DNA from: a virus
Length of the DNA: 64,000 bases
IMG/VR virus record: IMGVR_UViG_3300023178_000030
Location: 1 to 64,000 of that record
Reading direction: 5' to 3' (one strand)
Shown: positions 12,437 through 30,356 of the stretch, one piece after another
Numbering within the stretch: position 1 is the stretch's first letter
How the letters are laid out: every line of letters begins with the position of its first letter
Position numbers and translations under genes: made by a program
The notes under the pieces: model-generated
What the model saw: only the letters and a program-made list of their open reading frames with translations
Told to the model about the DNA's origin: nothing
Databases searched by the model: none

Positions 12437-12844
12437 ATGATGAAAAACGCATACTTAAAAAAGTATCAAGATTTTGTAGATTTTACAACCAGTCAACAAA
12501 GTAAAGACACAAGATATTTCAAAGATACTGTTGACTTAATTCGTGAACATAGATTACCACCAGAAAGAATTATTACAGCCGCAATGGGTTTGTCATCAGA
12601 ATCAGGTGAATTCGCAGAGATTATTAAGAAGATAGTATTTCAAGGTAAACCAATTGAAGAAGAAACAAAGTTTCATTTGAAAAGAGAATTAGGTGATATA
12701 CTTTGGTATGTTTGTCAAGCTTGTATTGCACTTGATACAGATTTAGAAGAAATAATAGAAATGAATATTAACAAATTAGAAGATAGATACCCAGGTGGTT
12801 TTAGTGAGTTCAATTCTAATAATAGAAAAGAAGGTGACTTATGA
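12437..12844 (+). CDS. mazG: MazG-like nucleotide pyrophosphohydrolase
   Basis: The central [18 protein letters not shown] and [12 protein letters not shown] form the MazG-type EExxE plus ExxD metal-binding helices. At 135 aa it is a single-domain enzyme as in marine T4-like phages. It hydrolyses (d)NTPs or ppGpp-like nucleotides; the true phage substrate is debated. The start follows a strong AGGAGG site, with two adjacent ATGs. It overlaps uvsX by 4 bp, so it is expressed with recombination genes. Confidence 0.9.
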
Positions 12845-14425: not shown

Positions 14426-14744
14426 TATTAGTAGTAAGTACACATATGTTGTAAATGAAAAACAAACTTGGACAGGAATAGGCTTGACAAAAGATGCAGG
14501 TAAATACCAAGGTGTTGTTTATCGTTATGGAAAAGTATCATTTGCAGATGAAGATGAAAATGGTAATATGCCATTAAAGTTTGAATGGGATATATTAGAT
14601 TCAAATGGTTTATCAAAAGAAGATATGCAAGAAGATTTTTTTAATTTAATAGGGGATATCCTAGTTGATATCATGGACAAACAAATTGAAGAAGGAAGTA
14701 TGGAATATGTCAACACCGACAATAGAGAGAACGACATTAAGTAA
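14418..14744 (+). CDS. Hypothetical protein (108 aa)
   Basis: This acidic protein has a beta-rich first half (KYTYVVNEKQTWTGIGLTK, then VVYRYGKVSFADED) and a helical acidic C-terminus. It overlaps the oxygenase gene by 8 bp and the gp41 start by 38 bp. The location between uvsX and gp41 suggests a replication accessory. I recognise no characterised family. Confidence 0.7.
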   Translation: MSDISSKYTYVVNEKQTWTGIGLTKDAGKYQGVVYRYGKVSFADEDENGNMPLKFEWDILDSNGLSKEDMQEDFFNLIGDILVDIMDKQIEEGSMEYVNTDNRENDIK

Positions 14745-16092
14745 TTTAGTTTATAATGAAAACTACACAAGAAAAGTTTTACCATTTTTAAAATCAGAAT
14801 ATTTTTCTGATAGACAAGAGAGAATTGTTTTTGAAGAAATTTCAAAGTTTGTAGAAAAGTTTAATAACAGACCAACTAAACAAGCATTATCAATTGAACT
14901 TGATAAAAGAAAAGATTTAAATGATGATGAGTTTAAAAAAGTTTTAGAAGTCGTTGAAACATTATCTGATGCAGAAGTTGATTTAAATTGGTTAGTTGAA
15001 ACAACAGAAAAGTTTTGTAAAGAGAAAGCTGTTTACAATGCAGTTTTAGAATCTATCAAAATTATTGATGGTAAAGATAAACAAAAACAAATAGATGCAA
15101 TACCAGATGTTTTATCTGATGCACTATCAGTTGGGTTTGACCAACACATTGGTCATGATTATGTTGATGATGGTGAAGGAAGATTTGAATTCTATCATAA
15201 GAAAGAAGAAAAGATAGAATTTGATTTAGATTATTTTAACAAAATAACTAAAGGTGGTTTACCACAAAAAACATTAAATGTTGCACTTGCAGGTACAGGT
15301 GTTGGTAAATCATTATTCATGTGTCACTTTGCATCATCACTTCTAATGCAAGGTAAAAATGTTTTATATATAACATTAGAAATGGCTGAAGAAAAGATTG
15401 CAGAAAGAATTGATGCAAACTTAATGAATGTCACAATGGATGAATTACATCAATTACCTAAAAAGATGTTTGAAGATAGATTGACAAAGATACAATCTAA
15501 AACTAAAGGTAGATTGATTATTAAAGAATATCCAACTGCATCTGCTCATGCTGGTCATTTTCGTGCATTGATTAAAGAACTTGCACTAAAGAAATCATTT
15601 AAGCCAGATATTATATTTGTTGATTATTTAAATATCTGTGCATCATCAAGATTTAAAGGAAATGCAAATGTGGGTAGTTACTTCTATATTAAAGCGATTG
15701 CAGAGGAACTTCGAGGGTTGGCAGTTGAGAATAATCTACCGATTGTTTCTGCGACACAAACAACTAGAGGCGGGTATTCAAACAGCGACATTGGAATGGA
15801 AGATACATCAGAATCTTTTGCTCTTCCTGCTACGGCTGATTTCATGTTTGCACTTATTTCTACTGAAGAGCTCGAAAAACTTAATCAAATAATGGTAAAA
15901 CAGTTAAAGAATCGTTATAATGACCCTAATATGAACAAAAGATTCGTTATTGGTGTTGATAGAGGTAAAATGAAACTCTATGACTGTGAACAAGAAGCAC
16001 AAGACGATATCATAGATAACGGTCAAGATGACGATAAACCTCTATTTGACAAGTCTAGAAGTTACGAAAAATTCTCTGATATTAAAGTTTGA
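14707..16092 (+). CDS. gp41: gp41-like replicative DNA helicase
   Basis: This is the DnaB-family hexameric fork helicase. I chose ATG 14707 because a GAAGGAAG site precedes it and the product then starts MSTPTIERTTLSNLVYNENY, in register with T4 gp41. Walker A GTGVGKS lies near residue 196, and LYITLEMAEE, DIIFVDYLNIC and the VSATQTTR segment match helicase motifs 1a, 2 and 3. YDLDYFNKITKGG precedes the ATPase core as in T4. At 461 aa it is close to T4 (475 aa). Confidence 0.95.
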   Translation: MSTPTIERTTLSNLVYNENYTRKVLPFLKSEYFSDRQERIVFEEISKFVEKFNNRPTKQALSIELDKRKDLNDDEFKKVLEVVETLSDAEVDLNWLVETTEKFCKEKAVYNAVLESIKIIDGKDKQKQIDAIPDVLSDALSVGFDQHIGHDYVDDGEGRFEFYHKKEEKIEFDLDYFNKITKGGLPQKTLNVALAGTGVGKSLFMCHFASSLLMQGKNVLYITLEMAEEKIAERIDANLMNVTMDELHQLPKKMFEDRLTKIQSKTKGRLIIKEYPTASAHAGHFRALIKELALKKSFKPDIIFVDYLNICASSRFKGNANVGSYFYIKAIAEELRGLAVENNLPIVSATQTTRGGYSNSDIGMEDTSESFALPATADFMFALISTEELEKLNQIMVKQLKNRYNDPNMNKRFVIGVDRGKMKLYDCEQEAQDDIIDNGQDDDKPLFDKSRSYEKFSDIKV

Positions 16093-16160: not shown

Positions 16161-17624
16161 ATGAAAACTTTCAAACAATATGTGTTGGCAGAAGCAGATA
16201 CATCTGGTGCAACCAACACAGAAATAGCAATTTGTTATCAATACAACTTAAATAGAACAAACGACCACGATAAGGCACTTTCTGACGGTGGTATTGATCC
16301 AAAAGACTTCCAAAAACTAACTCCAGAACTATTAGAAATCGGCAAAAAAGTTGCTGACCAGATGGGAAATAGAGGCCCAATGTTGGTTCATTCTGGTAGA
16401 GCAACTGCTAGTAAAAACTATTATGAGGGTGCAAGAGATGTTACTCCTAAAGCAGATTTCTTTGGTAATTCAAAAAATTACATTTCCTTAAAAAAATCAG
16501 GTGAAAGTGGTGCTGGTGCTCAATTAATGAGTGCTAAATCTGCTGAAGCTGCTGGTGTTGTAAAAGCCGCAGTTGGTCATTATGAAAATGCAACTGGTAG
16601 TGCTTTATCAAATAACAAAGATTTTGCAAAAGCAATTTCTATTCTAGAACAAGAAATGAAAAAAACTGCTCGTAATGATTTAAATGTTGAAGTTGCAAAA
16701 GGTAAAAAGAGTTTTGAAGATTGGTATGTATCTTCAAGTTCTCGTAGAGATAAAATACTTAAAAAAGAAAAAAATAAAAAGAAAGTTGATGCACATTTGA
16801 AAGCAGAACTTGGTTTGATTGGTGCTACAAGATTTAGTAAAAATCTTGAGAAAAATTTAATTGGTGGTATTGCACCAATTAGTCAAGCGCAACTTAAAGT
16901 GTATTATGATGAATATGCAAATGATTCCAAGTATAAAGTTGGAGATGTTACTGTTAGTGGTAAATATTTAAAAAATGTATCTAAAGATTTGTTATCTGAT
17001 GAAGCATTAAAAAAACAAATTACAGAAGTTATTGATACTTCCGTTAAATCTCTAACTTGGCAAAATGAACTTACAAAATTTTTTACTGATAATGAAGATT
17101 TAAAAAAATGGATAGTATATGAAGCAGGTTCTGGATTGTATAAATTCACAGGAGAATATTCTTCTGGTTCAAATTATTTTGGTTCAGATCAAAATGTTGC
17201 AAATAAAATATTAGTATTTTCTAGTGATGGTATTAAAACAGAATATGATATTATGAAATATGCAGAGGAGAATACATCACTAGTAAATAAGATATCTGTC
17301 AGTTATAAAGGTTCTGGTAGAAGCAAATATATTAAACTAGGTATTGCATCTGCAATGGAATACGAAATGCCATTTTTAAAAGAAGAAATGGATAAATTAG
17401 AAAAACAATATTACTTATCTGAAGGAATTTTTAGTGGTTTGAAAAAGAAACTTTCTACATTTGTAGATTCTGCAAAAAAACTGATAAAGAAGTTTTATGA
17501 AAATGTAATTAAAAGAGTAATAGGAAATATTAAAACACTTGCACAAAAAGGTGTTAATATTTTTCTAGATTCTATAGGATTGGAATATACTCCAAATGTG
17601 ACGATTGGAACTCCAAAATGGTGA
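16161..17624 (+). CDS. Putative internal head protein with capsid-targeting sequence
   Basis: The 487-aa protein opens MKTFKQYVLAEA, very like the T4 internal-protein capsid-targeting sequence MKTYQEFIxEA, including an LAE cleavage site for the gp21 prohead protease. The rest is unlike T4 internal proteins. AICYQYNLN and GRATASKNYYEGARDVTPKAD are conserved-looking, and the C-terminus is basic and amphipathic (LKKKLSTFVDSAKKLIKKFY). It is expressed from the composite late promoter. I infer packaging with the DNA and possible ejection into the host. No enzymatic family is recognised. Confidence 0.65.
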   Translation: MKTFKQYVLAEADTSGATNTEIAICYQYNLNRTNDHDKALSDGGIDPKDFQKLTPELLEIGKKVADQMGNRGPMLVHSGRATASKNYYEGARDVTPKADFFGNSKNYISLKKSGESGAGAQLMSAKSAEAAGVVKAAVGHYENATGSALSNNKDFAKAISILEQEMKKTARNDLNVEVAKGKKSFEDWYVSSSSRRDKILKKEKNKKKVDAHLKAELGLIGATRFSKNLEKNLIGGIAPISQAQLKVYYDEYANDSKYKVGDVTVSGKYLKNVSKDLLSDEALKKQITEVIDTSVKSLTWQNELTKFFTDNEDLKKWIVYEAGSGLYKFTGEYSSGSNYFGSDQNVANKILVFSSDGIKTEYDIMKYAEENTSLVNKISVSYKGSGRSKYIKLGIASAMEYEMPFLKEEMDKLEKQYYLSEGIFSGLKKKLSTFVDSAKKLIKKFYENVIKRVIGNIKTLAQKGVNIFLDSIGLEYTPNVTIGTPKW

Positions 17625-18868
17625 TAAGTTTTTCTGATTATCTAACAGAAGATAAAGGTGGTAAGAATTTACATCTCGAACATATCGAAGATGAGATTCT
17701 AAACTATGGTGTTGATGGTGGTAGAGCTGCAATTAATTTTGTTCAATCATTAAGAGATATGTTAGCAGGTTCTAGTCGTTCATCAATTAATATGACTGTA
17801 AAATGGGATGGTGCTCCAGCAATATTTGCTGGCATTGATCCTGAAGATAATAAATTTTTTGTTGCAAAGAAATCTGTATTTAATATCAATCCAAAACTTT
17901 ATAAATCAGTTGCAGAGATTGATGCAGATTTATCTGGTCAACTTAATGATAAATTTAAAGTTGCACTTGCAGAATTTTCTAAACTTAATATTAAAGGTGT
18001 TTTGCAAGGTGACTTAATGTTTACATCAGATGATATTAATACAGAAAATATAGATGGAACAAAGTATTATACATTTCAACCTAATACAATTGTTTATGCA
18101 GTTCCAGTAGATTCTGATTTAGGTAAACAAATTAAAAATGCAAAAGTTGGTGTTGTATGGCATACAACTTACACAGGTGATGCACTACAAGATATGAAAG
18201 CTTCATTTGGTGCAGATGTATCTAATTTAAATAAAGTATCTTCAGTATGGACTGATGATGCAACTTATAAAGATGTTTCAGGTAAAGCAACAATGACTGA
18301 AAAAGAAACTGCAATTGTAACAAAACATTTATCAAATGCAGGTAAAACTTTTAGAAAAATTAATTCATCATTGTTAAAGAGTTTTTTAAATTTACAAAAT
18401 ACATTTACTGGTGTGTATGCAAGTGCAGGTTTAAAAACATATAACAATTCAAAAGTAAGAGAAGGTAAACCAGTATCAGATGCAAAGAAACACGCACAAG
18501 GTTATTTAAAGTGGGTTGAAAATGCATTTGATAAACAGATGAATAAATTAAAGACAGATAAAAGTAAAGAAAAAGTAAAAGTCAAAAAGACAGAAGTATT
18601 AAGAGAATTAAAAAAACATACAGTTAATTTATCAAACATTGTAGATTTTCAGAATCACATTGTCAATGCAAAAATGGCTGTGGTGAAGAAACTAAATAAT
18701 GTTAGACAGTTAACAGATACATTTATCAAAACTGCAAATGGATACAAAGTAACAAATCCAGAAGGTTATGTTGCAATTGATAGAGTAAAAGGAAATGCAG
18801 TTAAACTTGTTGACAGAATGGAATTTAGTTTTAATAACTTTACGGCAATAAAAAATTGGGATAAGTAA
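17618..18868 (+). CDS. Polynucleotide-ligase-fold-like protein, probably head-associated
   Basis: Several segments are placed like ligase/nucleotidyltransferase motifs: KWDG at residues 62-65 (motif I KxDG), GVLQGDLMF at 127-135 (motif III-like), EGYVAID at 382-388 (motif IV-like) and KGNAVKLVDR at 391-400 (motif V-like). The order fits a DNA or RNA ligase fold with a helical insert. The N-terminus VISFSDYLTED resembles a capsid-targeting peptide. The start at 17618 overlaps the previous gene by 7 bp. It is conserved in marine T4-like phages as an uncharacterised family; activity is my inference. Confidence 0.6.
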   Translation: MVISFSDYLTEDKGGKNLHLEHIEDEILNYGVDGGRAAINFVQSLRDMLAGSSRSSINMTVKWDGAPAIFAGIDPEDNKFFVAKKSVFNINPKLYKSVAEIDADLSGQLNDKFKVALAEFSKLNIKGVLQGDLMFTSDDINTENIDGTKYYTFQPNTIVYAVPVDSDLGKQIKNAKVGVVWHTTYTGDALQDMKASFGADVSNLNKVSSVWTDDATYKDVSGKATMTEKETAIVTKHLSNAGKTFRKINSSLLKSFLNLQNTFTGVYASAGLKTYNNSKVREGKPVSDAKKHAQGYLKWVENAFDKQMNKLKTDKSKEKVKVKKTEVLRELKKHTVNLSNIVDFQNHIVNAKMAVVKKLNNVRQLTDTFIKTANGYKVTNPEGYVAIDRVKGNAVKLVDRMEFSFNNFTAIKNWDK

Positions 18869-19267
18869 ATGAAAACTTTTAAAGAATTGATGCAATCACT
18901 ACCAGAGAAGAAAGCAATGAGTTTTGCACAAAGACGAAAAGTAGGTATTCGTATGGGAAGAATGGCAAGATCATCTGCATTTCAAGCTAAACTAAAAAGA
19001 CTTCGAGGTAAAATGGCAACACCTGAAAAGTTAATGAGAAGAGCAAGAAAACAAGCGAAGATGTTAGCAATTAAAAAGTTTGGTGGTGTGTCTGCAAAGA
19101 ATTATGCACAAATGCCTGCATCAAAAAGAGTTACATTTGATAACAGAATTCTTGCAACTAAAGGTGCATTTATACAAAAAGTTGCAAAGAAGTTATTAAG
19201 AGTAGTAAGACAAAAAGAAATACAAAGATTGAAAACTTACAAACAAAATTTGAGTGATAAAAAATGA
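18869..19267 (+). CDS. Very basic head-internal protein with capsid-targeting sequence
   Basis: The 132-aa protein begins MKTFKELMQSLPEKK, a capsid-targeting-like sequence with an LPE cleavage site. The remainder is extremely rich in Arg and Lys (QRRKVGIRMGRMARS, MRRARKQAKML, KKLLRVVRQKEIQRLK). It probably binds DNA inside the capsid. It abuts the preceding stop and overlaps the next start by 4 bp, so it belongs to the same late unit. Confidence 0.7.
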   Translation: MKTFKELMQSLPEKKAMSFAQRRKVGIRMGRMARSSAFQAKLKRLRGKMATPEKLMRRARKQAKMLAIKKFGGVSAKNYAQMPASKRVTFDNRILATKGAFIQKVAKKLLRVVRQKEIQRLKTYKQNLSDKK

Positions 19268-21615
19268 AGGTAACAAAAGACCGAGCTATACAAAGATTTC
19301 AACAGAATCATCCTAAAACAAAAGACTATGATGCGTTTGTAAAAACTCAAGGTGCATCATTACAAAAAAAGTTACAGAAGATGGTTGATTTTGCAATGAA
19401 GATTCCAAATAAGAAAAATCAAGCAAAATACATTGATAACGAGGTTCGTGATATAGAAAGAGAATTAATTAAAAACTACGAAAAACAAATGAAAAAAGAA
19501 GAAGTTGTTTTAAAAACATTTAAAGATTTAAGGGAAGAAAAAAAGAAAACAGCTGTGTTTACTTTTGGTAGATTTAATCCACCAACAATAGGTCATGAAA
19601 AACTTATTGATAAAGTTTCTAAAGTTGCAGGTAGTAATTCTTATTTCATTTATCCATCTCATTCACAGAATACAAAGAAAGACCCATTACCACAATCTTT
19701 AAAGATTGCATATATGAGAAGTATGTTTCCAAAACACGCAAAGAAAATTATTGCAGGAACAGAAAAGAATGTATTTGACATTGCAGTATCTTTATACAAT
19801 AAAGGATTTACTGATATAGAAATGGTTGTAGGTTCAGATAGAATTAGAGAATTCAATAAGATATTAACAAAGTACAATGATGTACAAGGTAGACATGGAT
19901 TTTATAATTTCAAAACTATTACTGTAACTTCTGCTGGTGATAGAGACCCTGATGCAGATGGTGTAACAGGTATGTCTGCATCTAAAATGAGAGGTGCAGC
20001 TTTATCAAATGATTTTGAAACATTTAAATCTGGATTACCAAAAACATTTGGTCATGCACAGAAAATGTTTAAAGACATTCGTAAGTATATGAAAGTTGTA
20101 GAATCATTTAATACAATTTCACCTACATTAACTGAAGAAGATGTTATAAGAGATATGTATTTAGAAAATAAAATCTTTAACATTGGTGATATAGTTGAAG
20201 ATGTTTATACTGGAGTTTCTGGTGAGATAATTCGTAGAGGAACAAACTATCTTGTATTTGCAGAAGAAGATGGAACATCACACAAGAAATGGTTATTTGA
20301 AATACAACTAAAAGAAGATTGTTGGCCTGGTTACAAACAAGTTGGAATGAAAGATAAGAATGGAAAGAAAGTTCCTAATTGTGTTCCAGTAGGTGAAAAG
20401 AATGTAAAACAAGATAAAGATGTAAAAGATAAAGAAGGAACACAACCTGCAAAGTATTTTGCAAAAGATGCTGATGGTGATGAAATGTCAAAGTCTACAA
20501 AAGACAAAAGAGATGCACATTTCAAAAAAGGTGCAAGTAAGTCTGATGATGACCCAAGTGCATACAAACCAGCGCCTGGTGATAAGGGTGCAAAAACTAA
20601 ATTATCAAAATACACAAAAGCAATGAAAAAGAAGTATCCTGATTTATATAAAGAATCTGCTGATTCTTCACTAAAAAAGAAAGCAGAAAAGTCTGGAATA
20701 TCTTTCTCAATATTAAAGAAAGTTTACAATCGTGGTGTTGCGGCTTGGAGAACAGGTCACAGACCAGGTACTACTCCTCAACAATGGGGTCATGCAAGAG
20801 TTAATTCTTTTATGACTGGTGGTAAAACTCGTTCAACTGCTGATAAAGATTTATGGCAACAACACAAAGGTAAGAGCGAAGAAGTTAATACTGCTGATGC
20901 AATGAAAAGATACAAGTCTGGTAAAGCAGGATTTACTGACATTGCACATTTAAAAGCAAAAGGTTTAATTAAAAGAAGTGATGGAACAAAAAAGAAATCA
21001 GACAAATATGAAGATGGTGGTGCAGGTGATTGGGGAACTGATAAACTTGCAAACAAATATAAAAAAGATACGCCTGGTCAATCTGTAAAATCATTTACAG
21101 AGTTTCGTTCATCATGTTGTGAAGATTGCGAACAAGAATCTGATTTAATTGAATCAAATATTTACAGAGTTGGTTCTCAAAAGTATTTTGAATACTTTTT
21201 GGAAAAGAAAAAACTATACAAAGAAAATAAATTAAAAGTCGATAACAAATTTGACATTGAACTATTAGAAGGTGATATTGGTGAATATGCAGAATATGAA
21301 GGTAAAAATGTTGCATTAGATACACCAATGTTTGAAGAAGATGATGTTGAATTAAATAAACCTAAAAGGGGTGGCCCTAAAAAATATTATGTTTATGTGA
21401 AAGACCCATCAACAGGTAATGTTAAAAAAGTTACTTGGGGTGATACAACAGGACTTAAAGTTAAATTAAACGACCCTGAAGCAAGAAAAAGTTTTGCAGC
21501 TAGACATAAGTGTGATACTAGAACAGACAAAACTAAAGCATCATATTGGGCGTGTAGATTACCAAGATATGCAAAACAACTAGGTTTATCAGGCGGAGGA
21601 AACTTTTTTTGGTAG
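19264..21615 (+). CDS. Large head-associated polyprotein with nucleotidyltransferase domain
   Basis: This 783-aa protein has several parts. Residues 1-80 are helical. An internal capsid-targeting-like KTFKDLREE lies at 84-92. A cytidylyltransferase/NadM-like domain follows, with GRFNPPTIGH (102-111) and GMSASKMRGA (near 236). A segment at about 335 starts EDCWPGYKQVG. A block at about 470-530 (SGISFSILKKVYNRGVAAW, then GHRPGTTPQQWG) resembles DUF5824. The C-terminus reads KYYVYVKDPSTGNVKKVTWG and ARHKCDTRTDKTKASYWACR. LxE sites between blocks suggest processing by the prohead protease. Confidence 0.75.
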   Translation: MKVTKDRAIQRFQQNHPKTKDYDAFVKTQGASLQKKLQKMVDFAMKIPNKKNQAKYIDNEVRDIERELIKNYEKQMKKEEVVLKTFKDLREEKKKTAVFTFGRFNPPTIGHEKLIDKVSKVAGSNSYFIYPSHSQNTKKDPLPQSLKIAYMRSMFPKHAKKIIAGTEKNVFDIAVSLYNKGFTDIEMVVGSDRIREFNKILTKYNDVQGRHGFYNFKTITVTSAGDRDPDADGVTGMSASKMRGAALSNDFETFKSGLPKTFGHAQKMFKDIRKYMKVVESFNTISPTLTEEDVIRDMYLENKIFNIGDIVEDVYTGVSGEIIRRGTNYLVFAEEDGTSHKKWLFEIQLKEDCWPGYKQVGMKDKNGKKVPNCVPVGEKNVKQDKDVKDKEGTQPAKYFAKDADGDEMSKSTKDKRDAHFKKGASKSDDDPSAYKPAPGDKGAKTKLSKYTKAMKKKYPDLYKESADSSLKKKAEKSGISFSILKKVYNRGVAAWRTGHRPGTTPQQWGHARVNSFMTGGKTRSTADKDLWQQHKGKSEEVNTADAMKRYKSGKAGFTDIAHLKAKGLIKRSDGTKKKSDKYEDGGAGDWGTDKLANKYKKDTPGQSVKSFTEFRSSCCEDCEQESDLIESNIYRVGSQKYFEYFLEKKKLYKENKLKVDNKFDIELLEGDIGEYAEYEGKNVALDTPMFEEDDVELNKPKRGGPKKYYVYVKDPSTGNVKKVTWGDTTGLKVKLNDPEARKSFAARHKCDTRTDKTKASYWACRLPRYAKQLGLSGGGNFFW

Positions 21616-21890
21616 AGATATACAAAGATGATAAAAAACCAGAGAACGATTATTTCATTAGAACATTTAAACAAACTTGTAGTGAATATGATCTTGTCTG
21701 GCATAGAGATAAAAAAGACAGAGATATTATTGTTCTTGAAGGAGAAGGTTGGAGTCTGCAAAAAGAAGATGAAGATCCTATCGAGCTCGTTAAAGAAAAC
21801 TTATATCAAGTTAAAGCATATCAGTTTCATAGACTGTTAAAAGGAACTACTGATTTAAAACTTAAAATTTGGGAAAAAGAAAATGACTAG
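21609..21890 (+). CDS. Small cupin-like protein (TTG start)
   Basis: WHRDKKDRDIIVLEGEGWSLQ followed by PIELVKENLYQVKAYQFHRLLKG resembles a compact cupin-type barrel. The start is TTG 21609, supported by GGAGGA 8 bp upstream, and it overlaps the end of the polyprotein gene by 7 bp. Similar short proteins occur beside head genes of marine T4-like phages. The ligand is unknown. Confidence 0.65.
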   Translation: MVEIYKDDKKPENDYFIRTFKQTCSEYDLVWHRDKKDRDIIVLEGEGWSLQKEDEDPIELVKENLYQVKAYQFHRLLKGTTDLKLKIWEKEND

Positions 21891-22290
21891 ATACACAAAA
21901 ACAATGGCAGAAACTTTACTAGAAGTAAAGAAAAAACAAGAAGCTATTGATGCAACAGATACTGGTGGAGAAGAAGAAGTTTCCATGGCAGTAAGACAAG
22001 TTAGTGCAATGCAACATTTTTTACAAGGTATAGAATCCAGAGTTAAAGAAACTGGTGATATGGAAGAATGGTTTCAAAACAAACTAACAAAAGCACATGA
22101 TTATTTAAAGACACTTTATGCTTATGGTAAAGGTGATATGCAAGAAAAATTAAAAGTATCAGATGGACTTGGTGCATGGATATCTGACTTTCAAAAATCT
22201 GATGCACCACAATTCGATAACAAAACACCAGAAGAAAAAAAGAAAATGGCAATAGCTGCTTATGTTTCGGCTGGCGGAAAATTAGACTAG
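21883..22290 (+). CDS. Conserved marine-phage structural-cluster protein (135 aa)
   Basis: The protein is helical, with MEEWFQNKLTKAHDYLKTLYAYG in the middle and DAPQFDNKTPEEKKKMAIAAYVSAGG at the end. Both modules recur in virion-cluster proteins of marine T4-like phages as I remember them. The first residues (MTRYTKTMAETLLEV) could act as a targeting peptide. It overlaps the cupin-like gene by 8 bp. Function is unknown, probably prohead core. Confidence 0.6.
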   Translation: MTRYTKTMAETLLEVKKKQEAIDATDTGGEEEVSMAVRQVSAMQHFLQGIESRVKETGDMEEWFQNKLTKAHDYLKTLYAYGKGDMQEKLKVSDGLGAWISDFQKSDAPQFDNKTPEEKKKMAIAAYVSAGGKLD

Positions 22291-22299
22291 GAGAACAAG

Positions 22300-23547
22300 A
22301 TGAAATATCTTAATACTAAAAAAGGCAGTCTTGAAGAAGCTATTGTTAAGACTGTTGCAAAAGAAAACAATTTTATCTATGCCGCTAAAATGGCAAAGAA
22401 AAATGGTGAAAAAACTTTTACTATTGGTGGTAAACAATATGATGTCGAAGAATTTTTAGAAGGCAAAGTAGAGTGTCCACAATGTAAAGGTGAAGGTTGC
22501 GATCATTGTGATAATAAAGGTTATCATATGTCAGAAGCAAAGATTTCTAAAAAAGAAGTTGCTGATTTAGAGAAAAATAACCAACATGGTGAACTTGCAT
22601 TAAAACTTGCAAAGTCTTTTGGAACTCCAAAAGAAGTAAAGAAGATTGAAGATATAAACAAAAGACATGACAAAGCAGGTTCTATTGATCCTAAAGATCA
22701 AAAAGAAAGAGATGCAATTGCTAAAAAATATTACAAGATGGTAGAACAGATTGATGAACAACCAAGACAATTGAAAGACCCTAAAAAAGAAGTTATGGTT
22801 GTTAAGAACAATAATGTAATTGTAATCGACAAAAAAGATTTAGCTTCTTACAAGAAAAAAGGTTATGAAGTTGCAGAAGATAACACTAATGATGTTTCTG
22901 ATGATGGTGATGGTATGGACAAAGTACAACCTAAAGCATTAAAGAAAAAATTCAAAGATAGAAAAGATAAAGATATTGACAATGATGGAGATGTTGATGA
23001 TTCTGATGAATATCTACACAAAAGAAGAAAAACAGTATCTAAAGCAATTGCAAAGGAGAATGTTATGAATACACCAGGTAAAGATGATTATGTTGTAGTA
23101 ATTCAAGGACCAGGCGATAATAAACAAAAAATTATTGCAGTTTTTAAAGGTAAAGCAGAATTAAACAAAGCTCAAAAATTTAAAAACGATTGGAACAAGA
23201 AAAACGCAGACAAAATCAAGAAGAATAAAAAAGGTCAACCTATTCCATCTCATATGGCAAGAGTTTATATGCATCCAGCAACTGCCACAATGAATGGTAA
23301 GCCTCATGTTCCCAAAGTTGGTAATAGTGCTTCATGGTCTGATTTTAGTGATAGACTTATTAAAGAAGAAAATGTAGTAATTTCTAGAGCTGCACAATTC
23401 CTTTCAAGAATGTGGAAAGAATCTTCAGTAAAGAAAGAAGAAGAAAATGATGATGAAAAAGAAGTGAAAAAGAATGGAAAAACTATGACAGGAAAACCAA
23501 TGTCTAACATTGAAGTTAATCCTAAAGATGAAAGTAAACATAAATAA
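22300..23547 (+). CDS. Head-cluster protein with zinc-ribbon and EF-hand-like motifs
   Basis: A 415-aa, highly charged protein. VECPQCKGEGCDHC at about residues 57-70 is a DnaJ-like cysteine pair that could bind zinc. KDIDNDGDVDDSDEYLHKRRKTVSKAI near residue 227 contains a DxDxDGxVDxxD calcium loop common in marine T4-like head proteins. NVVISRAAQFLSRMW closes a helical module. A clear AGGAG site lies upstream. Prohead core or scaffold is the likely role. Confidence 0.6.
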   Translation: MKYLNTKKGSLEEAIVKTVAKENNFIYAAKMAKKNGEKTFTIGGKQYDVEEFLEGKVECPQCKGEGCDHCDNKGYHMSEAKISKKEVADLEKNNQHGELALKLAKSFGTPKEVKKIEDINKRHDKAGSIDPKDQKERDAIAKKYYKMVEQIDEQPRQLKDPKKEVMVVKNNNVIVIDKKDLASYKKKGYEVAEDNTNDVSDDGDGMDKVQPKALKKKFKDRKDKDIDNDGDVDDSDEYLHKRRKTVSKAIAKENVMNTPGKDDYVVVIQGPGDNKQKIIAVFKGKAELNKAQKFKNDWNKKNADKIKKNKKGQPIPSHMARVYMHPATATMNGKPHVPKVGNSASWSDFSDRLIKEENVVISRAAQFLSRMWKESSVKKEEENDDEKEVKKNGKTMTGKPMSNIEVNPKDESKHK

Positions 23548-23571
23548 AGTATAACAACAAGGAGAAATACT

Positions 23572-23841
23572 ATGGCTTTATGGGGAACAACAGACCAGAC
23601 TGCTGATAAACCTTTGAATTTAACAAGTGCAGAAAAAACAGCAACTGCTGGAATTTCTACAACAGAGGTTGCAGTCGCAGCTAACAAAGCGAAGGGCGTT
23701 GCACACGCTGGGTGGGTAACAACTAGAACCTACACAGATAGTGCTGGACAAACTCGTAACAAAACTGAAGTTTTGGTTGCAATGTCATCTATCACTAGTG
23801 ATGATTCAGCAGATGATACAACAATCGGAGCTAATGCTTAA
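23572..23841 (+). CDS. Small conserved virion-cluster protein (89 aa)
   Basis: It begins MALWGTTDQTADKPLNLTS and contains AANKAKGVAHAGWVTTRTYTDSAG, a pattern of small beta-rich proteins repeatedly found in marine T4-like head gene clusters. The G+C content is higher than in neighbours, which may reflect codon choice for high expression. It has an AAGGAG site 7 bp from the ATG and ends the upstream run. CATAAATA at 23540-23547 is one base off a late box. A decoration or capsid-surface role is possible. Confidence 0.6.
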   Translation: MALWGTTDQTADKPLNLTSAEKTATAGISTTEVAVAANKAKGVAHAGWVTTRTYTDSAGQTRNKTEVLVAMSSITSDDSADDTTIGANA

Positions 23842-23860
23842 TATATAAAGGAAAATAATT

Positions 23861-24115
23861 ATGCCAAATAATTCAAAAAGTTTGAAAATTGAAGATATCA
23901 ATAAACAAAAAGAAACTCTGCAATCTGACCTTGATAAAGTTCAAGGTCAGTTACAGAACATAGATAAAGCGAAAGTTCAATTGCAATCGCAGTTAGTTGC
24001 ACTTAACGGTGCATTACAACAATGTGATTTGTTTTTGCAACAATTAGGTGAGGCGAATCCCGCTAGTAGCATTCCTTCGCAAGACAATAATGCTGTAACT
24101 GAAGCATTGAGTTGA
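23861..24115 (+). CDS. Coiled-coil protein (84 aa)
   Basis: Residues 10-65 form continuous heptads rich in Gln, Leu and Lys (EDINKQKETLQSDLDKVQGQ onward). A flexible tail ends AVTEALS. An AAAGGAA site precedes the ATG. It lies among small virion genes and may be a structural or chaperone-like oligomer. No family is named. Confidence 0.6.
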   Translation: MPNNSKSLKIEDINKQKETLQSDLDKVQGQLQNIDKAKVQLQSQLVALNGALQQCDLFLQQLGEANPASSIPSQDNNAVTEALS

Positions 24116-24142
24116 AGGTTAACATTATAAGGAGAAGAAAAA

Positions 24143-24589
24143 ATGGCAGATAAAAAAATAACTGCACTATCAGATTTAGGAACAGGATTAGCAGGTGAAG
24201 ATTTACTTCATGTTATTGATGATCCTTCAGGTAATCCTGTAAACAAAAAAATTAGTGTTAATGATGTATTTCATAACATACCTACATGGATTGGTTTAGA
24301 TGGTACACCACAATCAATCACAGCAACAACTGGTGATGTAAATGTAACAACATCAATTACACATATTGACACTACTAGTGGTGCTCATTCAGGTGGTTTA
24401 CCAGATGGAAGTAATGGTCAAATTAAAATTATCACTATGATTACAGATGGTGGTGATTCAGTAATTACACCAACTTCACTCGCAAATGGTACTACAATTA
24501 CTTTTGAAGATGTAAATGATACAGTTACATTACTATTTACTAATTCTAATTGGGTTGTTCTTTCTAACAATGGAGCTACAGTCGCATAA
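24143..24589 (+). CDS. Putative virion fibre-like structural protein (148 aa)
   Basis: It starts MADKKITALSDLGTGLAGED and then LLHVIDDPSGNPVNKKISVNDVF, an N-terminal pattern seen in many phage head- or tail-fibre-like proteins. The remainder is Thr/Gly/Asn-rich beta sequence. An AAGGAG site lies 9 bp before the ATG. The stop overlaps the next start (TAATG). The exact virion location is unknown. Confidence 0.6.
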   Translation: MADKKITALSDLGTGLAGEDLLHVIDDPSGNPVNKKISVNDVFHNIPTWIGLDGTPQSITATTGDVNVTTSITHIDTTSGAHSGGLPDGSNGQIKIITMITDGGDSVITPTSLANGTTITFEDVNDTVTLLFTNSNWVVLSNNGATVA

Positions 24590-24741
24590 TGTGGCCTGAA
24601 TTGATAGAAGAAAGACCAGTAGAAAAATCATCTGAAGATGATGAAAAAAATATTGAAGCATGGCCTTTTCCTACAACAGAAAGTATGAAAAGGTCAAAAC
24701 TTCAACAAGAAAAACAGGATAATAAAAATGAAAAAGTTTAA
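24589..24741 (+). CDS. Small hypothetical protein (50 aa)
   Basis: ATG 24589 overlaps the preceding stop and TAA 24739-24741 lies inside the following gene. The product, beginning MWPELIEERPVEKSSEDDE, is very acidic with a proline-rich patch (AWPFPTTES). Overlaps on both sides support translation by coupling. No family is recognised. Confidence 0.5.
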   Translation: MWPELIEERPVEKSSEDDEKNIEAWPFPTTESMKRSKLQQEKQDNKNEKV

Positions 24742-25135
24742 AGACTATATTACTGAAAAATCATTAGATACTCAAAATGCAGTTGATGATGCTAGTTTCA
24801 ATAATGATTTAAGTAATCCAGATACAATTGTAAAGATTAATTCTTATCTTGCACAGTTAGGTAAAATGGAACATTTAGTTCCAGAAAATGCACTTAACAA
24901 ATTAAAAGACAAACTTGGTAGATTAAGTATTTCTTTTGAAGATGTTGAGTTAACTGGTAAGAGTGATACTTATGATTTACCTTTAACACAGTTTGGTGGT
25001 CGTTTTGGAAAAGACGAAGAAGGTGATATCAATGATGACGGTATTTCACACAAAGTAGAAGGTGGTTTAAAATTACAACTTAAACATGAAGTAACATCAG
25101 GAAACACACATTTCTTAATGGCAAAAATAGTTTAA
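24728..25135 (+). CDS. Head-associated protein with capsid-targeting sequence (135 aa)
   Basis: It begins MKKFKDYITEK, a T4-like capsid-targeting peptide with an ITE cleavage site. The rest is an alpha segment (KINSYLAQLGKMEHLVPENA) followed by beta strands and an EGDINDDG acidic loop. At 135 aa it could be an internal head protein. It overlaps the preceding small gene by 14 bp. Confidence 0.6.
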   Translation: MKKFKDYITEKSLDTQNAVDDASFNNDLSNPDTIVKINSYLAQLGKMEHLVPENALNKLKDKLGRLSISFEDVELTGKSDTYDLPLTQFGGRFGKDEEGDINDDGISHKVEGGLKLQLKHEVTSGNTHFLMAKIV

Positions 25136-25151
25136 TTAGTTTTTTTATATT

Positions 25152-25514
25152 ATGTTTGAAAAAATAACGAATGATAATGTCATTCTTTATGCAATAAAAA
25201 ATTATGATAATCCACAATGTGAGGGTGAAATAGAGTTTCATGATGACATGAAACGATTTAAGTACATTAAAAGACTTATTCGTAAATATCATGAAACTGG
25301 TGAATTAAAAGAAAGATTGATTTTAAATCACATGATTGTCATTAATAATTTGTTTGGTATAGAAGCTTCAAGTACATTGTTACTGTTTAAAGTAGAAAAA
25401 CAATACTGGCATATTTTAAAGTCATTTATGGTATTTCTAAATATGTTACAGAAACATGAATTAGATGATATAGAAGAAGATAAAAAAATAACAGAGGTAT
25501 TAGAGAAACTATAA
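25152..25514 (+). CDS. Conserved phage protein resembling DUF7207
   Basis: YDNPQCEGEIEFHDDMKRFKYIKRLIRKY and LKERLILNHMIVINNLFGIE are the signature segments of a family seen beside T4-like structural genes. At 120 aa it is all-helical. The start lacks a strong ribosome-binding site (TTTTTATATT upstream). It overlaps the next gene by one base. Role unknown. Confidence 0.65.
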   Translation: MFEKITNDNVILYAIKNYDNPQCEGEIEFHDDMKRFKYIKRLIRKYHETGELKERLILNHMIVINNLFGIEASSTLLLFKVEKQYWHILKSFMVFLNMLQKHELDDIEEDKKITEVLEKL

Positions 25515-26128
25515 TGGGAAGAGCGATAGACTTATTTGTAACTTACAGATTTATAAAGTTGTTAGTTACGCCTTTTGAAAAGACACCTGCATATAAGATG
25601 GGTATCATTGATAAAGAAGGTTACAGAACAGATAAGATACTTTATAAACAAGTAGAACAAGATGCTTATACTGTTCTACATAAACTTGTATTTAACATAA
25701 AAAGAATATTTGCAAAAGTTCCAGGCTTGAGAACAAAAGTAGGAACATATGCAGCTGCGTTGTTTTTATTGAAAGATACTTTCAAAGAACACATGGATGA
25801 CCCAAGAGTATTTGAAAAAGAATTTTTAAAATACTTAAAAGAAAAAAATATAGAATTAGATAATTCTATCGTAGAAGAAGTTACTCTAGACAATGGTAAA
25901 TTACCAAAAGGTTTATATAAACTTGTTAATGATGTTGTAATAACAAGTGAAGATGATAACGAGATTAGTGCATTAATTGGTGATGAAGTAGAAGCTTACG
26001 AAGATACTGCATCATCTGACACAATTATGGGAATAGATGTATTTCCAGTTATACACAGTAACACTAGACAAAAAATATATGTCAGTTCAGAAGATTTAGA
26101 AGAATTAGGAATAGGGGATATAAAATGA
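25514..26128 (+). CDS. Conserved virion-cluster protein (204 aa)
   Basis: It begins with AIDLFVTYRFIKLLVTPFEKTPAYKMGIID, which I recognise as a conserved opening of marine T4-like structural-cluster proteins. The segment VFPVIHSNTRQKIYVSSEDLEELG closes it. Coupled to both neighbours (1-bp and 4-bp overlaps). A structural or assembly role is inferred from position. Confidence 0.6.
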   Translation: MGRAIDLFVTYRFIKLLVTPFEKTPAYKMGIIDKEGYRTDKILYKQVEQDAYTVLHKLVFNIKRIFAKVPGLRTKVGTYAAALFLLKDTFKEHMDDPRVFEKEFLKYLKEKNIELDNSIVEEVTLDNGKLPKGLYKLVNDVVITSEDDNEISALIGDEVEAYEDTASSDTIMGIDVFPVIHSNTRQKIYVSSEDLEELGIGDIK

Positions 26129-27297
26129 CAACATTCAAAGACATCATGCAAAAATATTATGATGACGAAAAACTAGGAATCAAAAAAGAAGATGCACCAG
26201 TAAATGCAACAGGTGTTGCAGTTGCAGGAACAGGTGATGATAGTTCAACAGTCGTTGTAAAAAAGAAAAAGAAAAATCCATATGATGGTAGAACAAGAGA
26301 AGCAAAAGCGTTCTTAAAAAGAATGACTGAACGACAATCAAAACTTAAAGAAGCAGTTGAGTTAGATGAGTTTAATAAAATGACTGTTACTGTGAATGAC
26401 CCTAATCAAAGAAAAAAAGTATTTGATGATTTAAAGAAACAAAAAAGATTAGATGTTTCTATGGGGCCTGGTAAGACTATCAAAGTAGATGGTAAAGGTA
26501 AAGCACTAAATCTTTTTGCAAAAGACATAATGAATTTTTATGATGCAGAAATCAGAGCAGAAGAAATAGAAGAAGATGCAAAGATGGCTAAACAGTCTGA
26601 TGACAATCTAAAGTCACTAATGAAAAAGTTTCGTGACATGGAAAAGAAAGACCCAAAGATGCCTTCTACACAGTTTATGATTAAAAGAATTGGTAAAGAA
26701 ATGAAAAAACGAGGACTGAAAGAACAAGACATGAGTAATATGTGTTGTAAACAATGTGGTGATATGTTTGGTAAACCAACTGCTGAAAGTTCTTGTCAAT
26801 ATGACGCATACGATCCAAGTGGTAAAAATTGGGTTGCAAAGAATGAGTATTATGAAAGTGTAGAATATTTCAATGAAGCAAAGAAAGAGTTTCATTTATT
26901 TGATAACGAAAAAGAAGCACAAGCTTTTGCAAAGAAGTCTGGTGGTAAACTTGTCAAAGGTGTCAACAAATCTAAAGGTAAATTTGCAGTCGTTATCGAA
27001 GAAGTAAAACCAAGTTTCATTGATAATATCAAAGAAAAAATGTCAACATACTCAAGTGACTTAATGTTAAATGAAAGTAACTTGAAGATTGTTCAAGATA
27101 TTGTTAAAAGAAAAAGTGCAAAGAATATTAAGTTTAAAGATGGTTCTCTGAAAGTTGATATGTTTACTGCATCTGCACTTTCACAAATTTATGATAAAGT
27201 AAATACAGACAATAAAAAGAAAATGGAAAAGATGATGAATGGTACAAAAGATCAGTTCATGAAACTTGCCAAATTTGCATTGTCTAAAGTAGGATAA
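26125..27297 (+). CDS. Head-core-like protein with capsid-targeting sequence (390 aa)
   Basis: The start MTTFKDIMQKYYDDEK resembles the capsid-targeting peptide. A lysine-rich segment follows (KKKKKNPYDGRTREAKAFLKR). MCCKQCGDMFGKP near residue 206 is a cysteine cluster. MTVTVNDPNQRKKVFDDLKK and MPSTQFMIKRIGKEMKKRGL look like repeated helical modules of marine T4-like head proteins. It is probably a prohead core or internal protein. It overlaps its neighbour by 4 bp. Confidence 0.55.
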   Translation: MTTFKDIMQKYYDDEKLGIKKEDAPVNATGVAVAGTGDDSSTVVVKKKKKNPYDGRTREAKAFLKRMTERQSKLKEAVELDEFNKMTVTVNDPNQRKKVFDDLKKQKRLDVSMGPGKTIKVDGKGKALNLFAKDIMNFYDAEIRAEEIEEDAKMAKQSDDNLKSLMKKFRDMEKKDPKMPSTQFMIKRIGKEMKKRGLKEQDMSNMCCKQCGDMFGKPTAESSCQYDAYDPSGKNWVAKNEYYESVEYFNEAKKEFHLFDNEKEAQAFAKKSGGKLVKGVNKSKGKFAVVIEEVKPSFIDNIKEKMSTYSSDLMLNESNLKIVQDIVKRKSAKNIKFKDGSLKVDMFTASALSQIYDKVNTDNKKKMEKMMNGTKDQFMKLAKFALSKVG

Positions 27298-27307
27298 GGA
27301 ATAGATT

Positions 27308-27628
27308 ATGACAAATGAAAAACTAGAAGTGCTAAAATTAGAGGCTATGTCATCTTTAAGACCAAATGGAGAATGGTCGTATTCTCCTGGCACAGGTTTT
27401 GTGTGGGGAGATGGTAATACTGAAACACAACCCACAGATGCAGAATTAGTTGCTGAAATATCTAACATTGAATATAGGATTCATAGACAAAGTAGATATC
27501 CTAAACCAGAGGAACAATTAGATATGTTATGGCACGCTATTGATTCTGGTACATTGGATAAAACTTGTGACTTTTATACAACTTTAAAAGCAATAAAAGA
27601 TAATTATCCAAAAGGATATACAGAATAA
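27308..27628 (+). CDS. Tail/fibre-assembly-like protein (106 aa)
   Basis: PKPEEQLDMLWHAIDSGTLDKT followed by DFYTTLKAIKDNYP is a recurrent motif near virion fibre genes and in XkdW-like phage proteins. The first half contains a beta-rich WSYSPGTGFVWGDGN. It overlaps the next start by one base. Precise role unknown. Confidence 0.6.
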   Translation: MTNEKLEVLKLEAMSSLRPNGEWSYSPGTGFVWGDGNTETQPTDAELVAEISNIEYRIHRQSRYPKPEEQLDMLWHAIDSGTLDKTCDFYTTLKAIKDNYPKGYTE

Positions 27629-27849
27629 TGGCATATGTAACAGTACCAGGCTCAAATAATATATGGGAATATGATAATGCGGCTGTTAGAGCAGACACAT
27701 ATTCAGATTCACCAGGCACTATTACTGGTGGAGTAAGAAGTTATACCTCACCTAGAGGAGTAACAACACAAACTTATATTAAAGCGAGAAAAGTAGGTGA
27801 AACTATTGTTCGTGGTGAAATTAGTAAAACTTATTACGATAATCAATAA
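27628..27849 (+). CDS. Small structural-cluster protein (73 aa)
   Basis: A Tyr/Thr/Gly-rich beta protein (WEYDNAAVRADTYSDSPG, then SYTSPRGVTTQTYIKARKVG) without Cys. Its start overlaps the previous stop. Similar short proteins are common in late clusters of marine T4-like phages. No family is recognised. Confidence 0.55.
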   Translation: MAYVTVPGSNNIWEYDNAAVRADTYSDSPGTITGGVRSYTSPRGVTTQTYIKARKVGETIVRGEISKTYYDNQ

Positions 27850-27851
27850 CT

Positions 27852-28190
27852 ATGGCATCTTATGTTATAAGAAATACAACTAGTGAATATGCTTTCAAAG
27901 TAATTAATCAAGCATCTTTCACAATAACACTTGCAGATACAGCATTGAACGCTGTAACTCCAACTGGTTTATATATTAGTAGATATTATATAACTATGAA
28001 TTCAGGTAATGATTATGTAGAAATTGGTAGAAATGGTACAGCAGTTTTGGAACTTCATGGAAATGAAGTTGTTAATTTAGCTGCAATTAAGTTTCCTCTT
28101 TATGAAGAATCAGGTTCAAGTGTAGTTGTTACACCATCTAATTCAGGACATAAATACACACTAATCATGGCATTAGGAAAAATAATTTAA
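27852..28190 (+). CDS. Small beta-rich structural-cluster protein (112 aa)
   Basis: The protein alternates short beta strands (YAFKVINQASFTITLAD, GNDYVEIGRNGTAVLELHG) and looks like a capsid-surface or fibre-tip domain. Its stop overlaps the start of the next small gene. The role is inferred from context only. Confidence 0.55.
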   Translation: MASYVIRNTTSEYAFKVINQASFTITLADTALNAVTPTGLYISRYYITMNSGNDYVEIGRNGTAVLELHGNEVVNLAAIKFPLYEESGSSVVVTPSNSGHKYTLIMALGKII

Positions 28191-28342
28191 TGAAAACATT
28201 TAAAGAATTAAAAAAAGAAATATTAAAACAACAATCTTATAGTTATGCACTAGATACCTCTAAACCTATCGGAGATATTGTCGATAGAGATAGAGATGAG
28301 ATAAAATCTAGTGTCAAAAAGACTAAACGAAAGGCGAAATAA
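28190..28342 (+). CDS. Small basic protein with capsid-targeting sequence (50 aa)
   Basis: ATG 28190 overlaps the previous stop. The product begins MKTFKELKKEILKQQ and ends in a basic tail (SSVKKTKRKAK). It shares its first seven residues (MKTFKEL) with the basic protein at 18869, so it is probably another internal head peptide. Its size is like a packaged peptide rather than an enzyme. Confidence 0.6.
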   Translation: MKTFKELKKEILKQQSYSYALDTSKPIGDIVDRDRDEIKSSVKKTKRKAK

Positions 28343-29329: not shown

Positions 29330-29336
29330 TGTGTTT

Positions 29337-30356
29337 ATGAATTTTGTAGACATAAAATACATTTCTTTACTTTCCCCTAGACTAGAAAAATTTCAGAAGA
29401 AAGATAACTTTCTCTGGAACTTTAGGTGTCCTTATTGTGGTGATTCAAAGAAAAATAGAAATAAAGCTAGAGGTTTTGTTTATAGAACAAAAGCAGATTT
29501 GTTTTATAAATGTCATAACTGTTCTGTAGGTGCATCATTCTCTAATCTATTAAAGTATGTAGATACAAACTTACATAAAGAGTACATATTAGAGAAATAT
29601 AAAGAGGGCCAGACATCAAAAGGTAGAGGTAGTAAGAGTAATGTTACAGTACCTAATCCTAAATTTGATTTCAAACCACCTGTTTTCAAAACAAGACTAG
29701 GTAATCTAAAAACATTTGCAGAATTAGACAAGAAACACCCAGCTGTACAATATTTGTTTAAGAGAAAACTTCCTAGAGATTCTTGGAATGATATATATTA
29801 CTGTTCTAAATTTTTTGAGTTTTCCAACACGATAGTTGAGAACAAATTCCCTACTTTGAAAGGTGACCACCCAAGAATACTGATACCATTCAGAAATAAG
29901 AATGGTCAGATATTTGGTTATCAAGGTAGGTGTTTTGGGAAAGAAACTCAAAAATATATTACGATTATTTTCAATAATTCGTATCAAAAACTGTTTGGTG
30001 TCGATAGATTAAATACTAGTAAAACAATTTACATAGTAGAAGGCCCCTTTGACAGTCTATTCATAGATAACTGTATCGCAGTTGCACAAAGCGATTTACA
30101 AGTTACTAAATACAAAAACAAGTCTGTGTTAATTCCAGACAACGAACCTAGAAATAGAGAAATCTGTAAACAGATTGAAAAATATATTTCTAATAAGTAT
30201 AGTGTCGTTATATGGCCTAGAGATGTAAAAGAAAAAGATATAAATGATATGATTCTTTCAGGTATGACAAAAGAAGAATTACAACTTATAATACAACAAA
30301 ATACATATTCTGGTTTAACTGCACTTACAGAATTCAATAAGTGGAAAAAAGTTTAG
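29337..30356 (+). CDS. gp61: gp61-like DNA primase
   Basis: This enzyme makes RNA primers at the fork with gp41. The CHC2-type zinc finger is clear: FRCPYCGDSKKNRNKARGF then YKCHNC. The TOPRIM region includes IYIVEGPFDSLFIDN and VLIPDNEPRNREI, both matching T4 gp61. At 339 aa it equals the family length. ATG 29337 is preferred to GTG 29331 because the latter would precede the expected transcription start. No ribosome-binding site can be present on such an mRNA. Confidence 0.95.
   Translation: MNFVDIKYISLLSPRLEKFQKKDNFLWNFRCPYCGDSKKNRNKARGFVYRTKADLFYKCHNCSVGASFSNLLKYVDTNLHKEYILEKYKEGQTSKGRGSKSNVTVPNPKFDFKPPVFKTRLGNLKTFAELDKKHPAVQYLFKRKLPRDSWNDIYYCSKFFEFSNTIVENKFPTLKGDHPRILIPFRNKNGQIFGYQGRCFGKETQKYITIIFNNSYQKLFGVDRLNTSKTIYIVEGPFDSLFIDNCIAVAQSDLQVTKYKNKSVLIPDNEPRNREICKQIEKYISNKYSVVIWPRDVKEKDINDMILSGMTKEELQLIIQQNTYSGLTALTEFNKWKKV

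Follow-up and report, generated by a model that had tools for sequence, protein, structure and literature searches.

Within the capsid-targeting sequence (CTS) of the bacteriophage T4 internal protein IPIII, residues 4 and 7 function in targeting and residues 8 and 10 in processing (PMC9026906), and the discovery of internal proteins (IPs) by their signal sequence is already known in T-even phages (PMC12373910). Here we describe a block of genes in a 64,000-nucleotide window (positions 1 to 64,000) of the fragmentary, 78,962-base virus record IMGVR_UViG_3300023178_000030 (137 genes in a simple gene set), several of whose products begin with a short peptide of this kind, referred to below as the tag. 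The phage is a marine relative of T4, and the named phages closest to it, Methylophilales phage Melnitz and Pelagibacter phage HTVC008M, are T4-like members of the Kyanoviridae. As in T4 IPI, IPII and IPIII, the tag is an N-terminal peptide of ten residues with aromatic residues at positions 4 and 7, a hydrophobic residue at 8 and Glu at 10, and a gp21-type protease is encoded by relatives of the window phage; the tagged proteins differ in that their bodies are not IP-like, many being larger and enzyme-like, in that they occur in Kyanoviridae rather than T-even phages, and in that some tags span 9, 11 or 13 residues or are internal. The polyvalent and MuF-linked head-packaged effectors likewise comprise enzymes packaged for early injection, but these are packaged by way of a fused head domain such as MuF or portal, in place of the short peptide seen here (PMC9503650). 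We consider it likely that this phage marks otherwise unrelated proteins with a T4-type CTS and packages them; they would then be cut and ejected with the DNA.

The T4 register, expressed as the strict pattern M-x-x-[FY]-x-x-[FY]-[LIVF]-x-E with functional positions [FY]4, [FY]7, hydrophobic 8 and E10, is matched exactly by two genes of the record, both within a block bounded by a gp41-type helicase gene (14665-16092) and a DNA primase gene (29331-30356), the gene order of which is identical in Melnitz and mostly kept in HTVC008M. These two, like the genes and tags at 16161, 18869, 19264, 21883, 25514, 26125 and 28190 on the plus strand, are 24728..25135, the product of which begins MKKFKDYITE (F4, Y7, I8, E10; homologs in relatives start MKNFKNHIAE, MKNFSKYITE and MKTFKQYMKE), and 17618..18868, where the open reading frame (ORF) opens ATG-GTG and the GTG at 17621 gives MISFSDYLTE (17621..17650; F4, Y7, L8, E10). 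A preliminary description of the window had proposed that at least six proteins share a T4-like motif, and all the sequences that it named are present: the ORF starts MKTFKQYVLAEA at 16161, MKTFKELMQSLPE at 18869, MKKFKDYITE at 24728, MTTFKDIMQ at 26125 and MKTFKELKKE at 28190 were confirmed, as were the ATG-GTG opening of 17618 and KTFKDLREE within the 19264 product. The motif itself is shared unequally, being exact in 17618 and 24728, one residue longer in 16161, loose in 28190 and 19264, and without a canonical cut site in 18869 and 26125. Aromatic residues occupy positions 4 and 7 in 17618 (read from GTG), 24728 and 16161, whereas 18869, 26125, 28190 and the internal 19264 tag have F4 but Leu or Ile at 7. 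The combination of hydrophobic 8 and Glu 10 occurs in 17618 and 24728; in 16161 (16161..17624), the tag MKTFKQYVLAE (16161..16193), followed by A, instead has VLAE with E11. This combination is missing from 18869 (18869..19267, a basic protein of 132 amino acids (aa) whose homolog, present in 33 loci, often begins M-x-x-F), which carries LPE three residues late relative to the T4 register, and from 26125, which has no [LIVMF]xE cut site behind its tag, while 28190 (28190..28342, a 50-aa protein encoded near the primase gene, without homologs in a tblastn search of 82 loci) and the 19264 tag, which is internal, are without a hydrophobic residue at 8. A second tag type, MTRYTKTMAE, missing from the earlier list, opens the product of 21883..22290 and is identical in HTVC008M and near-identical in Melnitz (MTRYNKTMSE). 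A looser tag pattern is found in 4 of 23 genes between 14 and 29 kb as compared to 2 of 114 elsewhere (Fisher p=0.007). The tag signal is modest from the window alone and strong once relatives are included.

To read the tags of relatives, 80 IMG/VR loci were fetched, ortholog N-termini were read, and tags were counted as distinct sequences and compared with shuffled tags. The full pattern is present in 41 of 55 distinct tags of the family of 17618 (DUF6267; 73 loci), with shuffles averaging 3.9 and reaching a maximum of 10, and in 24 of 34 distinct tags of the cytidylyltransferase family of 19264 (47 loci; shuffles average 0.7, maximum 4), although tags within one family are related and the counts are therefore not independent events. 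Typical starts are MIKFSSFLTED, MLNFSGFLAED and MKRFSTFLTED for DUF6267, and MKKFSEIREA, MKTFKDIREA, MRSFSQISEK and similar for the cytidylyltransferase. Among relatives, the tag is retained even as the flanking sequence varies. For the 16161 family, in which the part upstream of the conserved domain varies in length and sequence, [LIVMFY]xE stands just ahead of the domain in all nine distinct tags (matched by 6 of 500 shuffles), and the full pattern occurs in just two of the nine (matched by 16 of 500). A KTFKDLREE-type tag forms the N-terminus of the cytidylyltransferase in most relatives; in the window (19264..21615) it lies at residues 84-92 (19513..19539), directly ahead of the cytidylyltransferase domain, because an upstream stretch has been fused on, as is also the case in the closest contig. 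Use of this internal tag as an alternative start was ruled out, as the preceding codon is TTA. A Peptidase_S77 (gp21-type prohead protease) was found in Melnitz, HTVC008M and one IMG/VR relative, that is, in three of five records.

Published virion proteomes allow the tag to be compared with packaging. For Synechococcus phage S-CREM2, for which 52 proteins were detected in virions (PMC10665884, Table 3), all 219 annotated protein genes were translated and scored against the published list: the strict pattern occurs in four proteins, all four virion-detected, and in none of the 167 undetected ones (p=0.003; 0.04 expected by shuffling). These are gp6 (S-adenosylmethionine (SAM) lyase family, PF23780), the kinase-like gp14, the cytidylyltransferase gp154, and gp136. 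When the pattern is loosened, gp13 (detected) and gp175 (undetected) also match, giving five detected versus one undetected. Virion-detected gp12 has the motif at residues 19-25, and the same search also finds undetected gp71; gp12 (OR473000 7704-10313) is annotated Cas9, a label that may be wrong and that, without Pfam support, was not used as a cargo identity. Neither targeting nor N-terminal or internal proteins come up in the main text of the S-CREM2 paper (PMC10665884). A natural comparison is offered by S-SZBM1, in which the tagged cytidylyltransferase (140; MRFRQFIIEA) is among the 30 virion-detected proteins, whereas the DUF6267 protein and its neighbour 142 are both untagged and both undetected (PMC9146016). 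A cytidylyltransferase is also present in S-SM1 virions (PMC3037559) and an NMNAT-like protein in those of S-SCSM1 (PMC9602691). The proposal that the listed proteins are packaged is thus upheld in part, drawing on the key T4 positions, conservation in relatives, the gp21-type protease of relatives and tagged orthologs in published virion proteomes, but not equally for all: 17618, 24728, 16161 and members of the cytidylyltransferase family are likely to be packaged by way of their tags, the 19264 tag being internal, and the case is less sure for 18869, 26125 and 28190, where the tags are weak.

The bodies behind the tags point to several enzymes. The 19264 product, earlier called nucleotidyltransferase-like, matches PF01467 (23.4 bits, cut-off 21) and phrog_395 (E 4.7e-74), which confirms that description, and also contains DUF5824. 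The 17618 product belongs to DUF6267 (PF19782, E 2e-104), with K62, W63, D64 and G65 (KWDG, residues 62-65) invariant in 26 aligned sequences. Its structural model has a mean predicted local distance difference test score (pLDDT) of 76, the tag region being disordered (residues 1-18 below 50). RNA and DNA ligases are numerous among the VIA-align matches, which at similar Z also include unrelated helical proteins; the model aligns with trypanosome RNA editing ligase 1 (REL1; Z 7.5 over 180 residues) and T4 RNA ligase 2 (Rnl2; Z 6.5 over 166 residues), with which it has a KxDG motif in common and from which it differs by an identity of about 12% and a long helical insertion. Foldseek returned nothing at E 0.001 or better (best E 0.25), no significant match. 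The earlier term ligase-like has some fold support from VIA-align, and on the model DUF6267 looks like an RNA/DNA-ligase-like protein. The 16161 domain, with invariant K97, D99, S109, K111 and Q121, may be nuclease-like (D...SxK motif), a reading from motif residues alone because the AlphaFold model (mean pLDDT 54) is of too low a quality for a structure search. In the corresponding block, P-loop kinase-like proteins are encoded in HTVC008M (L002:26563-27225) and in IMG/VR locus L082 (872-codon frame at 12482), the latter with MEFKDFISEG ahead of the P-loop. Judged by its start and position, 23572-23841 in the window looks like the counterpart of S-SZBM1_136, which is untagged and virion-detected.

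A further member of the block resembles T4 gp61.1, which is encoded at 18966-19130 of NC_000866 and consists of MKTFKEFIKE, a stretch matching the N-arm of the major capsid protein gp23 behind its cut site (local score 77, reached by 0 of 2000 shuffles), and then lysines. The product of 26125..27297 has the weak tag MTTFKDIMQ, a putative capsid-arm mimic, a lysine run (KKKKK) and further modules. Its EDAPVNATGVAV (26188..26223) resembles the N-arm of the Melnitz major capsid protein behind the predicted cut (EAAPTNSTGSAV), with a local score of 38 that 1 of 2000 shuffles reached, the window phage's own capsid gene lying outside the record. The product of the adjacent 25514..26128 resembles RB43 gp61.1 in its N-terminal domain (BLASTP E 3e-12 over 68 aa), a search against solved structures giving nothing useful for it, and for this reason the two window genes look like a gp61.1 gene divided in two that is a single gene in RB43-type phages; both sit between the gp41 and gp61 genes, as does 61.1 in T4. 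The likeness to T4 gp61.1 comprises the helicase-primase position, the tag, the putative mimic of the capsid N-arm and the lysine run, while the window version differs in being divided over two genes and in the extra C-terminal modules and weak tag of 26125. At residues ~303-320 of 26125, an internal MSTYSSDLMLNE corresponds to a stretch that in relatives opens a protein of its own (in L053, for example, MSNYRKTMAQAIREMYPINE), and such fused tags suggest polyprotein-like processing. Elsewhere, virion-detected S-CREM2 gp160 has a 24-residue match to the capsid protein of its own phage, scoring 95 as compared with 43 for the next best protein and at most 58 for 200 shuffled arms, and 61.1-type genes with an arm-like stretch are found beside or near the primase gene in Aes508, PX29, RB43, Octan, PM2 and POP12. 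Across 12 phages, own-phage arm matches scored higher than permuted pairings (0 of 10,000 permutations), as they did within the Kyanoviridae (five phages, p 0.017) and Straboviridae (seven phages, p 0.035). In HTVC008M and S-SZBM1 the arm match scores higher with another phage's partner than with their own, and in Melnitz 20 of 200 shuffled arms find an equally good proteome match; arm matches follow the own family strongly and the own phage moderately. At a guess, a gp61.1-type protein may act as a tether between the inner capsid wall and DNA or cargo.

The reach of the tag was gauged with a codon pattern, which in the T4 genome occurs in three places, namely ipII, ipIII and 61.1 (reversed pattern, 0). 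In IMG/VR it occurs in at least 120 stretches, of which 80 loci with 82 matches were read. Among these listed matches, 79 of 82 open an ORF of at least 60 aa where a gene could plausibly start; the proteins that reach 60 aa number 80 and form at least 30 sequence clusters. A rearranged-codon control gave 46 of 62 apparent gene starts among the matches listed, and is no clean background because, on our reading, about 40 of its 62 matches resemble tags in their own right (position 7 F or Y, position 8 F, E10). Pfam analysis of 26 tagged proteins from 23 of the 30 clusters named CTP_transf_like, RimK-like ATP-grasp, DUF6267, DUF6321, HD_4, GNAT, HicA_toxin with DUF6321, and DPBB_1, the remainder having no match above the cut-off. 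Tagged proteins with HicA-like, HD, GNAT and RimK-like domains (L161:12007-12630, L181:1226-1783, L142:4149-4529 and L154:3704-5116) are candidate injected effectors. Melnitz carries a RimK-like protein with MTQKFSQFITEE, and has the strict pattern in 1 and a medium pattern in 8 of 219 genes. The stretch GLxxDGHGGWYDxxGEFVAKTxxGKLKF recurs behind the tag in many cargo proteins (L177:5203-6516, in a cluster of at least 29), a similar stretch being present in S-CREM2 gp12; perhaps it is a second packaging module. Our literature searches, from which subscription papers largely fell outside coverage, found no paper extending the CTS to Kyanoviridae or to such enzymes; 'capsid targeting' with 'cyanophage' returned PMC9026906 alone, and DUF6267, DUF5824 and DUF6321 returned none.

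By analogy with T4, we infer that the N-terminal tag would dock a protein into the prohead scaffold core during head building, that a gp21-type protease would cut after the Glu and free the protein inside the head, and that the freed protein would be ejected together with the DNA. The cargo would comprise the RNA/DNA-ligase-like DUF6267 protein, a cytidylyl- or nicotinamide mononucleotide-adenylyl-transferase-like enzyme, the nuclease-like protein and small proteins, which may act at once on entry in nucleic-acid repair, in the supply of nicotinamide adenine dinucleotide or nucleotides, or against host defence. Several observations weigh against this. Just two window proteins have the strict pattern and the in-window statistic is modest; Peptidase_S77 was not seen in the 78,962-base fragment, where a control was likewise without any match; one of two plausible tagged S-SZBM1 genes (140, not 191) is among the detected proteins, and untagged S-SZBM1_139 and _136 of the same block are in virions (PMC9146016), as are untagged S-CREM2 155, 156, 165, 174 and 176, with the S-CREM2 authors warning that such proteins might be co-purified contaminants (PMC10665884). 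The presence of untagged proteins in both virions indicates that the tag is not the sole packaging route.

The tag could alternatively serve docking only, the tagged proteins functioning in head morphogenesis and not being delivered to the next host. The small, basic or low-complexity nature of several of them (18869, 24728), which could be core proteins, and the capsid-arm mimic of 26125 and gp61.1, which points to a head-structural role, would fit this, yet T4 IPs are injected (PMC12373910) and enzymes predominate among the cargo that Pfam names (cytidylyltransferase, SAM-lyase, kinase, RimK-like ATP-grasp, GNAT, HD domain), and we regard docking alone as unlikely. A mobile 5′ cassette, spread by recombination for reasons of expression and with no packaging role, was weighed and rejected as very improbable: N-termini do vary independently of bodies and tags can sit inside fused ORFs (19264), but conservation falls on protein positions 4, 7, 8 and 10, shuffled tags fail, and in S-CREM2 tag presence goes along with virion detection (PMC10665884). 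Chance is more improbable still and was also rejected. AT-rich phage genes often have MK-rich amphipathic starts, and the loose pattern has 6 matches in the record versus about 3 expected by shuffling (maximum 8); against this stand the S-CREM2 strict pattern, the ortholog tags, and the restriction of the codon pattern in T4 to the three genes named above. Tagged packaging with delivery remains the reading that we favour.

A broader proposition, which we hold tentatively and short of favouring it, is that the tag may work throughout the T4 superfamily as a general code for head delivery, by which any gene could become injected cargo on gaining ten residues. Marine phages would then load an RNA-repair and metabolic kit (as read here, ligase-like, nucleotidyltransferase, nuclease-like, SAM-lyase, RimK-like, GNAT, HD and HicA-like proteins), with gp61.1 and 26125 copying the capsid arm, perhaps as a tether; in the T4 major capsid protein, too, the stretch ahead of the gp21 cut resembles the ten-residue tag. 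For the majority of genes in the abundant marine T4-like phages no role is known, and the tag is probably a predictor of the proteins that enter the host with a phage. If reliable, it would allow sequence alone to name proteins that enter the host with the DNA, before phage gene expression, would turn long lists of genes without a known role into testable candidates for first-minute effectors or counter-defence proteins, would explain the recurrent cytidylyltransferases of cyanophage virion proteomes and would provide a natural handle by which proteins could be loaded into phage heads, while the capsid-arm mimic gives the uncharacterised T4 gene 61.1 a concrete, testable hypothesis.

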